DNA of 64,000 nucleotides from contig JAGVMA010000064.1 in assembly GCA_020054095.1 (NCBI GenBank), positions 1 through 64,000 on the forward strand. The letters run 5' to 3'. The notes beneath the pieces were generated by a model, which had not been told where the DNA came from, ran no database searches, and saw only the letters and a program-made list of their open reading frames with translations. The position numbers were made by a program, and so were the translations under genes. The stretch's first letter is position 1. Each line of letters starts with the position of its first letter. The DNA is from Bacteroidia bacterium (GTDB lineage Bacteria; Bacteroidota; Bacteroidia; JADZBD01). This document shows positions 8,492 to 30,498 of the stretch, in pieces.

Positions 8492-9453
8492 ACAGGAATC
8501 ATCTCGTTTTTTTCCGGATCCCACACTTTTAGTTTAAAACATGCAATAATATCTTTTGGATACAATGTGGTTGTTTTCGCTTTTTGCATCTCCGGAAAAA
8601 TCGACATTACTTCAGGCAGACGATAAAAAGGAATACGTGAATTAATGTGGTGAATGTGATGATAGCCAATATTCGCAGTTACCCATCGCCAAAAAAAATT
8701 CATTTTCATGTAGCTCGAAGATTCTAAAGCTGCGTGCTCATAGCTCCACTCTACATTGTTTTTAAAAGTTACACCCGGAAAATTATGTTGTGCATAAAAT
8801 AAATAGGAGCCCAAACCACAAGCTATTAAAAATGGAACAAACCAAACCAAAAGCCACATTACCCAACCTCCGAAATAAAAAAACAACACAGCAGCAGTTA
8901 AATGTAAAACCATTGCAAGCATTGAGTCCCAATGCCTGCGTGGGCTACTGATGAAAGATTGAACACACATTCCGTAAAAAAACATAATTACAAATCCGAA
9001 CATAACTGTGAGTGGGTGGCGCACAAATAAATACTCTTTTTTTTCTGCCGAAGAAGATTTCATGAATTTCTCTTTCGTGTAAATAGGAAATGAGCCAATG
9101 CTTGCACTAAATAGTTTTGAATTATGATTATGATGATAATCGTGCGATCGTTTCCAAATGCTTTCGGGCGCTAAAATGAAAAGCCCAAATAATCTGAAAA
9201 TTATTTTTGCTACAATTGATTTTTGCAATATTGCGTGATGCTGATAATCGTGATAAATTACAAATAGACGAACGATTACAAATCCGGTAAAAATACTACA
9301 CCCAATTTTTGCGAATATGTTTTGTAATAATGCAATTGTAGTTAAAAGACCTATGAGTAGCAAATAAGTTGACGCAGTAAAATACCAACTCTTCCACCTT
9401 ATTTCTTTTGCATAAGGGCGAGTAGCTAAAATTAATTCTTTACCATGCCTCAT
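8488..9453 (-). CDS. Membrane fatty acid desaturase family protein
   Basis: This is a di-iron membrane desaturase. Histidine boxes are visible in order: HDYQHH, HDYHHNHN and HHIHH. Several hydrophobic helices lie between them, as expected for an acyl-lipid or acyl-CoA desaturase that inserts a cis double bond into membrane fatty acids. The ATG at 9453 (MRHGKEL) is preferred to an upstream TTG at 9474, giving 321 residues. The stop lies 24 bases upstream of the next leftward gene's end region and the two genes almost abut, so it is probably co-transcribed with the LpxL-like and PlsC-like acyltransferases. Substrate and position of desaturation cannot be read from the sequence. The 3' end overlaps the restored end of the PP2C gene by 4 bases. 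Confidence 0.85.
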   Translation of the reverse strand: MRHGKELILATRPYAKEIRWKSWYFTASTYLLLIGLLTTIALLQNIFAKIGCSIFTGFVIVRLFVIYHDYQHHAILQKSIVAKIIFRLFGLFILAPESIWKRSHDYHHNHNSKLFSASIGSFPIYTKEKFMKSSSAEKKEYLFVRHPLTVMFGFVIMFFYGMCVQSFISSPRRHWDSMLAMVLHLTAAVLFFYFGGWVMWLLVWFVPFLIACGLGSYLFYAQHNFPGVTFKNNVEWSYEHAALESSSYMKMNFFWRWVTANIGYHHIHHINSRIPFYRLPEVMSIFPEMQKAKTTTLYPKDIIACFKLKVWDPEKNEMIPV

Positions 9454-9477
9454 TATGTCGGCTAAAATAAACAAATA

Positions 9478-10344
9478 TTAGTTTGGTCGTTTGTGCTTCC
9501 ACCTGCGATGTGTCCACAACCATATTTCGGGCTGGGCAATAATATCCTTCTCTAATCGCTGCGTGTGTAATTCCGATATTTCGTTTTCTGTAAGTGATGA
9601 TGGATTGTCGGTTAATGGTTCGGCATAAATTTTATACTTACCACGCTTTATTCGTTTCACACTAACATATATAATCGGATAATTTAATTTTTTTGCAATT
9701 ATACCTGTGCCTTGAAATATCGGAGTGTCTTGATTAAGAAATTTTGTCCAATATGCTTTATCTGGATGAGGGGTTTGGTCGGCAATAAATGCCGTTGCGT
9801 TAATTTTTGTTTTGTTTTTCAACATGTCTTTATAGGTGTTTTTCATTTCAATAAGTTTCGTCCCAAAGCGAGTTCGCATATTCACTATTAAATCATTAAA
9901 TTTTTTGTTTTGCAATGGGTGGTAAATTACATGCAACTGATAATTACACATAAGCGTAAAACTATTTCCGGCCCATTCCCAGTTGCCATAATGCCCCATT
10001 ACTATTATTATGTTTTTGTTTTGAGAATAATATTTTTCAAAAAGTGTAAGCGCATTTTTATCCATTTCACAGTAGTCAAGCATTTTCTTTTTTGAAATAG
10101 TTAATGTTTTAAACACTTCTAATATTAAATCACAAAAATAGCGGTAGAATTTTCGCCTTATTGCTTTTATCTCTGCCTCTGATTTCTTGGGGAAGGATTT
10201 TTTTAAATTTTCGGTTACTACTTTTTTCCGGTAGCCAAATACATAATAAATCAATATGTAAAAAAAATCGGCAACTCCATTAAGCAAGAATGGCGGCAAA
10301 ATTGAAACTAAATAAGTAAGCGGCAGCAATAAATAGTATCCCAT
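9478..10344 (-). CDS. LpxL/HtrB-like lysophospholipid (lipid A) acyltransferase
   Basis: The 288-residue protein belongs to the bacterial lipid A biosynthesis acyltransferase family. It has an N-terminal membrane segment (MGYYLLLPLTYLVSILPPFL) and the acyltransferase motif GHYGNWEWAG, with the catalytic His four residues before an acidic position, and a downstream TAFIADQTPH block that resembles the family's second motif. Homologues transfer a secondary acyl chain to lipid A precursors or related lipids at the inner membrane. It lies 3 bases from a PlsC-like acyltransferase gene and directly upstream of the desaturase, so a shared role in membrane lipid assembly is likely. Whether the acceptor is lipid A or another amphiphile is unknown. 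Confidence 0.85.
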   Translation of the reverse strand: MGYYLLLPLTYLVSILPPFLLNGVADFFYILIYYVFGYRKKVVTENLKKSFPKKSEAEIKAIRRKFYRYFCDLILEVFKTLTISKKKMLDYCEMDKNALTLFEKYYSQNKNIIIVMGHYGNWEWAGNSFTLMCNYQLHVIYHPLQNKKFNDLIVNMRTRFGTKLIEMKNTYKDMLKNKTKINATAFIADQTPHPDKAYWTKFLNQDTPIFQGTGIIAKKLNYPIIYVSVKRIKRGKYKIYAEPLTDNPSSLTENEISELHTQRLEKDIIAQPEIWLWTHRRWKHKRPN

Positions 10345-28125: not shown

Positions 28126-29142
28126 TTGACCAGGATCTGCACATATAAATTGTATGCGCTTGCATGTTGCTTTCTCTTTTCGGCAAAAGTTTTTGCCGGA
28201 GGAGAAGGCACCAACAATGCTGCCGATACAGTGAGCCCAAAAACGATTGTAAAGTTAGGACCTGCCAAAATGTATGAGCGCAAATCACTCATCAATAAAA
28301 TGAGCGATTCACAATTGGTTAATTTGATTGATTATCTTTTTGAACTCGATTCTATCCCTTACGATTTGGTTTCGGAAATTACCAAAGTTGTTAAGAACCG
28401 TCAACCCGTTGTAGAAAATACAAAATACTATTCCGATTCCTTTCCATCGGCAAACTATTACACCGTGTGGGATACAAAACATATTTTTCCGATAGATGAT
28501 CTATTGCCCAAGCACGATACTTCGTTTATACTTGATTTATCGCAAGGCATTACCGGAAAATATTTTCACCCATTTTCCGGACTTGTTACTTCAGAATTTG
28601 GCTGGCGCGATAGTGCAAACCATAATGGTATTGATATAGACTTAAATAGAGGCGACCCTGTGGTAGCAGCATTTGATGGCAAAGTGCGCATTGCAAAACG
28701 CGAAGGCGGTTTTGGAAACGTAGTAATAATAAGGCACTACAATGGCTTGGAAACAGTGTATGCCCACCTTTGGAAAATAAAAGTTAAGCCGGGCGATATT
28801 GTAAAAGCCGGGCAACTTATAGGTTTAGGCGGCAGTACCGGTCACAGCACCGGCAGCCATCTGCATTTCGAAATACGTTTAAAAGGATTACCCATTAACC
28901 CACGTTTTCTAATTTCATTTAAATCGGAGGAGCTGTTAGGCAGCACAGTTGAGTTGAAGAAAACAAAGTGGGGTTTATCTGCTTTTCCGATAACGGCAAC
29001 TATGTACACAGTGCAAAAAGGTGATAAACTTTCACTTATTGCTAAGCAGTATAATACCACCACTAAAAAATTGAAAGAACTTAACGCTTCTCAAAGCAAA
29101 TATTTATACCTCCGTGTGGGCCAGCAGATAAGGGTTCTGTGA
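28126..29142 (+). CDS. Exported M23 peptidoglycan endopeptidase-like protein with LysM domain
   Basis: The 338-residue protein has a signal peptide (LYALACCFLFSAKVFAG). Residues about 160-265 are an M23/LytM domain with the metal ligands in HNGIDID and HSTGSHLHFE and the motif VYAHL. Residues about 290-338 form a LysM peptidoglycan-binding domain (YTVQKGDKLSLIAKQYN). Such proteins cut or remodel cell-wall cross-bridges or activate amidases in the periplasm. The start is odd: an in-frame stop lies shortly upstream and no ATG precedes the signal peptide, so TTG at 28126 (or TTG at 28153) must be used. Confidence 0.86.
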   Translation: MTRICTYKLYALACCFLFSAKVFAGGEGTNNAADTVSPKTIVKLGPAKMYERKSLINKMSDSQLVNLIDYLFELDSIPYDLVSEITKVVKNRQPVVENTKYYSDSFPSANYYTVWDTKHIFPIDDLLPKHDTSFILDLSQGITGKYFHPFSGLVTSEFGWRDSANHNGIDIDLNRGDPVVAAFDGKVRIAKREGGFGNVVIIRHYNGLETVYAHLWKIKVKPGDIVKAGQLIGLGGSTGHSTGSHLHFEIRLKGLPINPRFLISFKSEELLGSTVELKKTKWGLSAFPITATMYTVQKGDKLSLIAKQYNTTTKKLKELNASQSKYLYLRVGQQIRVL

Positions 29143-29206: not shown

Positions 29207-29236
29207 TTTGTCGCTTAATTATTTGTCCTACATTCG
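29207..29236 (+). promoter_or_regulatory. Probable promoter of the ilv leader region
   Basis: A -33 TTTG (29207-29210) and a -7 TACATTCG (29229-29236) are 18 bases apart. The -7 differs from TAnnTTTG only by C in place of T, a variant seen at several other genes in this window. Transcription from here would begin a few bases before the first leader peptide start at 29259. Confidence 0.5.
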
Positions 29237-29258: not shown

Positions 29259-29324
29259 ATGAAAAAATTCTACACATTTACTTATGCACTAATCACTTTT
29301 GTGGTGATTATTATTGCCGTATAA
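29259..29324 (+). CDS. Leader peptide 1 of the ilv attenuator (21 residues)
   Basis: A 21-codon frame starts with ATG-AAA-AAA and ends at TAA 29322-29324. Residues 15-21 are Val-Val-Ile-Ile-Ile-Ala-Val, and Leu-Ile occur at 11-12, so 8 of the last 11 residues are branched-chain amino acids. It lies just upstream of a terminator hairpin and of ilvE, which marks it as a control peptide rather than a functional product. The hydrophobic character alone could also suit a tiny membrane peptide, but the RNA pairing described at 29325-29383 favours attenuation. Confidence 0.72.
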   Translation: MKKFYTFTYALITFVVIIIAV

Positions 29325-29384
29325 GGGAGTGTGCGAAAAAACATAAAATGTCTGAAGCGCCACTCCCCAAAAGAGTGGCGCTTT
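29325..29384 (+). promoter_or_regulatory. Attenuator 1: antiterminator/terminator switch
   Basis: Terminator: 11-bp stem AAGCGCCACTC (29355-29365) with GAGTGGCGCTT (29373-29383), loop CCCAAAA. Antiterminator: GGGAGTG (29325-29331), directly after the leader stop codon, is fully complementary to CACTCCC (29361-29367) in the terminator's 5' arm, and GCG (29333-29335) can extend the pairing past one bulged base. A ribosome at the stop codon would cover the G-rich segment and let the terminator form. A ribosome stalled at the Val/Ile codons would leave it free to form the antiterminator. The following U tract is weak (TTTACATTT). Confidence 0.72.
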
Positions 29385-29421
29385 ACATTTGTACCAAACT
29401 AAAAGTGTAAAAGCTCAAAAA

Positions 29422-29481
29422 ATGAAAAACATATTACTGAATTTTTATGTGGTGAAATTTATTATTTATCCTTCCGGGTGA
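29422..29481 (+). CDS. Leader peptide 2 of the ilv attenuator (19 residues)
   Basis: The frame reads MKNILLNFYVVKFIIYPSG and stops at TGA 29479-29481. Ile-Leu-Leu (4-6), Val-Val (10-11) and Ile-Ile (14-15) make it rich in branched-chain residues, like leader 1. It follows the first terminator by 38 bases and has its own hairpin pair downstream. The stop codon is inside the antiterminator strand. Confidence 0.72.
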   Translation: MKNILLNFYVVKFIIYPSG

Positions 29482-29541
29482 GGCGGATGAGCACGTAAAA
29501 AATGCAAGCCCTTCTCACCCAAAACGAGAAGGGCTTTTTAT
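29476..29541 (+). promoter_or_regulatory. Attenuator 2: antiterminator/terminator switch
   Basis: Terminator: 11-bp stem AAGCCCTTCTC (29506-29516) with GAGAAGGGCTT (29526-29536), then TTTTTA. Antiterminator: GGGTGAG (29476-29482), which contains the leader TGA stop codon, is fully complementary to CTCACCC (29514-29520), covering the end of the 5' arm and the start of the loop. The geometry is the same as in attenuator 1, so the pair looks like a duplicated or convergent control unit in front of ilvE at 29582. Confidence 0.74.
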
Positions 29542-29581
29542 TTATACTTCAACTAACAAATCAAAAAAACAGAAAAACAAA

Positions 29582-30133
29582 ATGTACTACAACAAAAAAA
29601 CAGTTTTATTCAATAACGGCAAATTTTTGAAAGCTTCAAAAGCTACAGTTAACCTTTACGGACAAACGCTACATTATGGTTACGGAGTGTTTGAAGGTAT
29701 CCGCGCATACTCCACATCAAATGGAGTAAAAGTTTTTAAAGCAAAAGAACATTTCGAACGATTGAAGCGCTCGTGCGAATTGGTACACATTCCATTTGAT
29801 TATAATGTTAATGAGTTAGAAATGACTACTTACGAATTGCTATTGCAAAACAAGTTAAGTGATGCATACATCCCTCCGCTTGTGTATTGCGACCCGAACA
29901 TGAACTTGAATAAACCAAGTAAAGCAAACCTGATGATATGTGCTTGGGAATGGGGAAATTATTTTGGCGATAAAATGCTGCGAGTTTCAATTTCAAAATA
30001 CCAGCGACCTAATCCTAAATCAATAATTGTGGAAGCAAAAGTAAATGGCCATTACATTAATTCTATACTTGCTACTATTGATGCAAAGGAAAAAGGATTT
30101 GACGAGGGATGGTTGCTCACTCGATCAATTTAA
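29582..30133 (+). pseudogene. ilvE: 5' part of branched-chain aminotransferase gene, fused out of frame to ilvA
   Basis: IlvE transfers the amino group in the last step of Ile, Leu and Val synthesis. Residues 1-176 match the family closely (YGQTLHYGYGVFEGIRAY, VYCDPNMNL, SYQRPNPKS-like block) and include the PLP-binding lysine in [11 protein letters not shown] (Lys153). After FDEG (residue 176) the similarity stops; the frame gives WLLTRSI and ends at 30133. About 115-120 C-terminal residues, including PLP phosphate contacts, are absent, where the family has about 295. The DNA runs straight into the end of ilvA in another frame (from about 30111-30120). The gene product should be inactive. 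Confidence 0.85.
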
Positions 30134-30498
30134 AGATGAGATAAAAGGCAAAACCATAGTTTGCATTGTGAGCGGAAGTAATAATGACATTACCAGAACA
30201 GAAGAAATTAAAGAGCGATCTTTATTGCATGAAGGATTGAAACATTATTTCATAGTTCCGTTTTCACAACGTGCAGGTGCGCTAAAAGAATTTGTATCAG
30301 ATGTGCTGGGGCCAGATGATGATATTACTTATTTTGAATATTCGAAAAAAAATAGCCGCGAAAAAGGCCCAGCTGTAATTGACATTGAACTAAAAAAATA
30401 AAAACGATTTTGAATTTATTAAGCAACGCTTGCATGTTAAAAATATTGCCTATGAATATTTAAACGCAAAACCCGAACTGATGAATGCGCTGCTGTGA
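30111..30498 (+). pseudogene. ilvA: 3' fragment of threonine dehydratase gene with an additional frameshift
   Basis: From [12 protein letters not shown] (30120 on) the translation matches the C-terminal regulatory domain of Bacteroidota Ilv[52 protein letters not shown]. IlvA makes 2-oxobutanoate from threonine, the entry to isoleucine synthesis. This frame stops at 30401 after IDIELKK. Dropping one A from the 7-A run at about 30391-30397 restores [20 protein letters not shown] and the normal end (stop TGA 30496-30498). So the fragment lacks the whole catalytic domain and carries a second, independent-looking lesion. It joins ilvE at 30110-30120. Confidence 0.85.

Follow-up and report, generated by a model that had tools for sequence, protein, structure and literature searches.

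Two short reading frames crowded with branched-chain amino acid codons, each followed by a terminator-like hairpin, lie in tandem upstream of ilv sequence in the genome of a Bacteroidia bacterium. Do they form two ribosome-mediated attenuators, must a polymerase pass both, and is there still an operon behind them to regulate? These questions were addressed in a window of 64,000 nucleotides (the whole stretch of DNA that was analysed), in the rest of the same genome and in related loci. The analysis indicates that two such attenuators very probably stand in series in the place before a branched-chain amino acid (BCAA) operon, and that, the operon having been lost here, they are a probable fossil.

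Two leader-terminator units in tandem

The elements of the two units are as follows.

29259-29324, plus strand: leader ORF of unit 1, MKKFYTFTYALITFVVIIIAV and a stop codon, with the control run Val-Val-Ile-Ile-Ile at 29301-29315
29325-29335, plus strand: segment 2 of unit 1 (GGGAGTGTGCG), immediately 3' of the leader 1 stop codon
29353-29392, plus strand: terminator hairpin of unit 1 (AAGCGCCACTC/GAGTGGCGCTT) and a weak U-tract; the stem sequence is identical in the nearest relative, L031
29422-29481, plus strand: leader ORF of unit 2, MKNILLNFYVVKFIIYPSG and a stop codon, with Ile-Leu-Leu, Val-Val and Ile-Ile codons
29467-29480, plus strand: protector hairpin of unit 2 (TATCC-TTCC-GGGTG), in which the final leader codons pair with segment 2
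29476-29482, plus strand: segment 2 of unit 2, GGGTGAG, overlapping the TGA stop; TGAG is invariant in alignment A2 (see below)
29506-29545, plus strand: terminator hairpin of unit 2 (AAGCCCTTCTC/GAGAAGGGCTT) and its U-tract

A preliminary description of this DNA had reported the two leader ORFs rich in branched-chain codons, a 7-base complementary segment after each and two terminator hairpins, and all of these were found where it had placed them. In unit 1, GGGAGTG (29325-29331) is the exact 7-nt complement of CACTCCC (29361-29367), and the antiterminator duplex is longer than had been seen, GGGAGTG-(T)-GCG pairing with CGC-CACTCCC (-18.7 kcal/mol). In unit 2, GGGTGAG is the exact complement of CTCACCC (29514-29520); this duplex with arm 3, the 5' side of the terminator, also extends past 7 bp (-18.1 kcal/mol). 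Pairing across the units is weaker than either unit's own antiterminator duplex (-7.3 and -13.3). Hairpin 1 (29353-29385) has 11-13 pairs and folds alone at -21.8 kcal/mol; hairpin 2 (29506-29536) has 11 pairs and folds alone at -18.4 kcal/mol. The folding z-scores are -6.0 for unit 1 and -2.4 for unit 2. Terminator 1 appears to be the weaker of the two because its U-tract is poor (TTTACATTTG, 5 T in 8). The predicted protector partner of segment 2 in unit 1 is RNA inside the leader (~29273-29288); in unit 2 all five protector pairs are kept, two of them as G-U. The two units differ in type, and each corresponds to its own counterpart in L031, namely MKNLNQLISSVIIVIVVITTM, with a GTG start, for leader 1 and MKLNILNLIVVVVIIICPSG for leader 2.

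Recurrence of the units before ilvE

The relatives comprised 80 ilvE loci from one contig scan, nearly all from Bacteroidota, and ten more from a genome search; they were ranked by similarity to the window IlvE and are not an even census of the phylum. In nearly all of them a leader rich in Ile/Val/Leu, a terminator and a complementary segment lie directly before ilvE, an architecture shared by many families. Leader ORFs with clustered control codons comprise both window leaders and those of most of the 90 relatives, and the leader sequence IIIISIII is conserved. A lack of both the ORFs and the complementary segments in relatives with intact ilv operons, which would speak against attenuation, was looked for and is not what these loci show.

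Strict U-tract thresholds missed unit 1, and the thresholds were relaxed and the controls rerun. At settings that call both window units, the 91 ilvE upstream regions include 73-83 with at least one unit and 18-32 with at least two. Among 818 control upstream regions from the same contigs, none had two units; one unit was found in 6-22 at these settings, and in 0-22 over all settings. The tandem pattern before ilvE thus far exceeds chance.

The number of units per locus was curated by eye from the detector output. Three loci were unclassifiable; in the remaining 88, the window included, there is one unit in 55, two in 24 and three in nine. Two consecutive units had been called unusual in the preliminary description, which is wrong for this phylum, as two or three are present in 33 of the 88 loci. 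Pedobacter, Chitinophaga and Cyclobacteriaceae have one unit, and Flavobacteriales mostly two or three. On the IlvE tree the single/tandem label is clustered, with 7 changes, and the window forms a supported clade with L031 and L032, all with two units. The two proximal units of several Flavobacteriaceae are nearly copies of each other (MKTNSNIIIISIIIRSFE and MKTNMNIIIISIIIRSFE in L033), a similarity that suggests unit duplication; the third unit of L033 has a clear terminator and an unclear leader ORF.

Two further features of the sample were noted. In the Myroides locus L045 (~9440-9960), three terminators and at least three units are present; 100 N interrupt the array, as would be expected had the repeat disrupted assembly, and there may be a fourth unit. 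On contigs L041 and L049, whose labels are Limnohabitans and Pedobacter Hv1, the ilvE loci are Bacteroidota/Flavobacteriales-like, and contamination or mislabelling is the probable cause.

Structure and covariation of the RNA

Covarying arms and conserved control codons upstream of ilvE had been proposed as a check on the attenuator assignment. Alignment A2 consists of 18 proximal-type units from relatives, with the window left out. In it 98% of terminator-helix cells are paired, and the compensatory changes of this helix were matched by 0 of 500 shuffles. The protector helix, in which the 3' end of the leader ORF pairs with segment 2 (CGCTC-nnnn-GAGTG, CCC-nnnn-GGG), has 7 cells with changes on both sides, a count reached by one of 500 shuffles. 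The terminator and protector helices thus covary, and the control codons are conserved. The antiterminator pairs in 93% of A2 cells, which is not above column shuffles, and four of its seven pairs never vary. Since it is too invariant in A2, it was assessed by permutation across 31 diverse loci, where each locus paired with itself had a mean of 12.23 vs 8.47 when permuted; 0 of 20,000 permutations matched. Judged from these sequences, the antiterminator pairing is locus-specific and segment 2 tracks arm 3.

A covariance model (R1), built from A2 without the window, matches unit 2 at 29467-29544 with 53.4 bits (E=1.9e-11), the best R1 match in the whole genome. Among the whole-genome R1 matches outside ilv loci that were inspected, most were ordinary or riboswitch terminators, the exceptions being leaders before ilvB. 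One of these, in another genome (L119 of G012, ~1430-1575), is the Val/Ile leader MNTKNNNIIVVVVSSLG, followed by the same GGGGTGAG/terminator layout directly before ilvB (acetolactate synthase). Searches of the window and seven relatives against Rfam at the gathering threshold gave no match, including to T-box or other riboswitch families. Below threshold, full-length matches to Phe_leader (RF01859; 27.9 and 17.6 bits, gathering threshold 55 bits) coincide with both unit boundaries.

Proposed mechanism and serial gating

Sequence, complementarity, conservation and covariation together lead us to infer the following course of stalling and termination. When charged tRNA is plentiful, the ribosome would reach the stop codon and cover segment 2, the 3:4 hairpin would form, and transcription would stop. 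A ribosome stalled on Ile/Val/Leu codons would leave segment 2 free to pair with arm 3, and transcription would continue. Where no ribosome covers it, segment 2 could be held by the protector helix within the leader. In the relatives segment 2 starts upstream of the stop codon, at a median distance of 7 nt from the first base of this codon; at this position a terminating ribosome would mask the segment. Predicted folding agrees with both states: with the stop occupied, the terminator forms; with a ribosome stalled in the Val/Ile run before arm 4 is made, the antiterminator forms (in each unit at -18.1 kcal/mol). The terminator is always the predicted equilibrium structure, and the model therefore needs co-transcriptional kinetics, as all such attenuators do.

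A polymerase starting upstream of leader 1 would have to pass both gates. A start of this kind is suggested by one further element.

29207-29236, plus strand: candidate Bacteroidota-type promoter (TTTG ... TACATTCG, -33/-7 like), ~25-30 nt before leader 1

The TACATTCG element at 29229 has one mismatch to the -7 consensus TAnnTTTG. In 31 of 81 loci this consensus is found in the 70 nt that precede the first leader, vs 0.05 expected per 70 nt, and it stands before later leaders in 5 of 25, an enrichment that favours a single upstream start and gating in series. Were each unit instead to have its own promoter, the gates would act in parallel and polymerases started between the units would meet gate 2 alone. 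A perfect -7 element, TACATTTG, does lie just behind terminator 1, in its tail (29384-29391), where a second start may lie, and TAnnTTTG is found 60-66 nt before the second or third leader in five Flavobacteriales-type loci. Where a -33 element would be expected for 29384-29391, however, the window has no TTTG-like sequence, and the motif is absent between the L031 units. Taken with the lower frequency before later leaders, this makes separate promoters unlikely, and the series arrangement is preferred.

Two gates in series would multiply repression, or the two might sense different tRNAs. Isoleucine accounts for 163 of 225 I/L/V residues in distal units and 155 of 217 in proximal units; this shared predominance of Ile codons makes it less likely that the units are strongly specialised for different amino acids.

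Probable loss and decay of the operon behind the leader

The preliminary description had stated that ilv genes follow. Sequence from ilvE and ilvA does follow, and the statement holds in name only, as two fragments are all that is there.

29582-30118, plus strand: 5' fragment of ilvE, codons 1-179; partial match to TIGR01122, 74% identity to L031 IlvE by tblastn
30117-30495, plus strand: 3' fragment of ilvA, from codon 288; TIGR02079 profile positions 285-377, 85% identity to L031 IlvA

The ilvE fragment, whose ORF matches just the first 60% of IlvE, is joined out of frame to the ilvA fragment (ilvE codon 179 to ilvA codon 288, vs L031), and 29582-30495 is thus an ilvE'-'ilvA fusion pseudogene. 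The ilvA part is frameshifted near 30395, after which a second frame runs to the C terminus. The ilvE part has no internal stop over its 179 codons and carries R98P in a column conserved in at least 97% of the other rows; a decayed-residue test, a weak one, counted this one deviant conserved residue and ranked the fragment 10 of 91. In L031, the nearest relative (IlvE 74% identical), the order is intact: ilvE-ilvD-ilvB-(a gap of ilvN size)-ilvC-ilvA. By comparison ~6.3 kb is missing from the window: the rest of ilvE, ilvD, ilvB, ilvC and most of ilvA. The functional biosynthetic operon that follows the leaders in L031 is represented here by fragments.

Whole-genome searches (87 contigs, genome rated 100% complete) found no ilvB, no ilvD, no full ilvC and no THD1 ilvA besides the remnant. 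In the sole genome of the same family, ilvB, ilvC and type-I ilvE are likewise absent. The ilv genes were very probably lost in reality rather than in assembly: an internal deletion would have removed the operon behind the gates, and the remnants would then have decayed. Should the fusion be an assembly error, the real operon would be intact under working attenuators. All the missing genes do fall in the one missing block, and the ilvE fragment is still open, as such an error would have it; it would leave unexplained the completeness of the genome, the separate frameshift in the ilvA remnant, R98P and the parallel absence in the related genome, and is unlikely.

Under real gene loss, the leader in this genome is probably a regulatory fossil without regulatory output. 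Ribosome-mediated attenuation, as proposed in the preliminary description, is still the best reading, since control codons, gene context, helices that exclude one another and the placing of segment 2 at the stop codon are all conserved across Bacteroidota; what does not stand is control of a working gene here. The window copy is a relic of the ribosome-mediated attenuator class and not a working member. Both units are intact though the operon is gone, which might point to a function in trans as short attenuated RNAs or leader peptides, and a trans-acting leader peptide, peTrpL, is known elsewhere (PMC7298713). A recent deletion explains the intactness equally well, however, and the leu genes retained in this genome have no conserved leader or attenuator before them, leaving action in trans improbable. 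Also very improbable is that the hairpins simply terminate transcription of the M23 peptidase gene upstream (28126-29142, same strand), with the short ORFs as chance frames in AT-rich Bacteroidota intergenic DNA, where Ile codons are common; against this, relatives with different upstream sequences have these leader/hairpin pairs before ilvE, 0 of 818 other upstream regions have two units, segment 2 follows arm 3 locus by locus, and IIIISIII is conserved.

The leu genes just mentioned form an intact-looking leuA-leuC-leuD-leuB set (L117, 7045-11295, on contig C11 of this genome, G000), retained despite the ilv loss; leuC, leuD and leuB were named by ORF order and sequence rather than by profile. 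LeuA matches positions 1-376 of the 494 of the leuA profile, and its C-terminal part is absent. Imported valine or ketoisovalerate may be the precursor of leucine.

Relation to known attenuators

The ilv/leu/thr/trp attenuators of enterobacteria are ribosome-mediated, and the textbook arrangement is usually one unit per operon. The units described here resemble them in having a leader ORF with control codons, protector, antiterminator and terminator helices, and, in relatives, a biosynthetic operon downstream. They differ in being stacked, in having no sequence similarity to them, and in belonging to a phylum that does not rely on Shine-Dalgarno initiation. To our knowledge leader-peptide control has hardly been studied in Bacteroidota, where initiation is largely independent of Shine-Dalgarno pairing. 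Bacteroidetes/Chlorobi were reportedly among the groups with candidate attenuators in work by Vitreschak in 2004.

The closest tandem precedent is the Salmonella mgtCBR leader, where attenuators mgtM and mgtP lie in one leader, called a singular example by its authors (PMC3641672). As in the ilv arrays, two leader ORFs with attenuators share a leader, and one of the mgtCBR pair senses an amino acid. The mgtM and mgtP attenuators, however, sense different signals (ATP and proline) and act additively, without intrinsic terminators (PMC3641672), whereas each ilv unit has its own intrinsic terminator, all would respond to one amino acid family, and the arrangement is found repeatedly across a phylum. 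Corynebacterium ilvBNC likewise has a BCAA leader peptide attenuator before ilv genes, in a different phylum and described as a single attenuator (PMC10272879, PMC11857589). Within Bacteroidota, clues to leader-peptide attenuation before amino acid operons were reported for Flavobacterium psychrophilum, with neither ilv nor tandem units named in the main text (PMC9723704); locus L035 is from this species and has three units before ilvE. Bacteroid-trp RNA (RF01692) is a Bacteroidetes cis-regulatory candidate at amino acid genes, in its case a single motif for Trp (PMC2864571), and it gave no Rfam match here. In the open-access literature searched, no account of same-signal attenuators arranged in series was found for Bacteroidota. 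The mechanism is thus of a known kind, and its serial same-signal arrangement across a phylum is absent from Rfam.

BCAA operons in Bacteroidota could be controlled, as a standard design, by two to three or even more same-signal attenuators in a serial array, a proposal about evenly balanced between right and wrong: each gate would require its own stall, repression would be multiplied and the response steep, arrays would change by unit duplication, and a double array could outlive its operon. Such leaders go unannotated because no Rfam family covers them. In the window copy the regulatory leader persists after deletion of the operon. How the gain and range of starvation sensing depend on serial gates could be tested directly in a clade that naturally stacks two or three same-signal attenuators.
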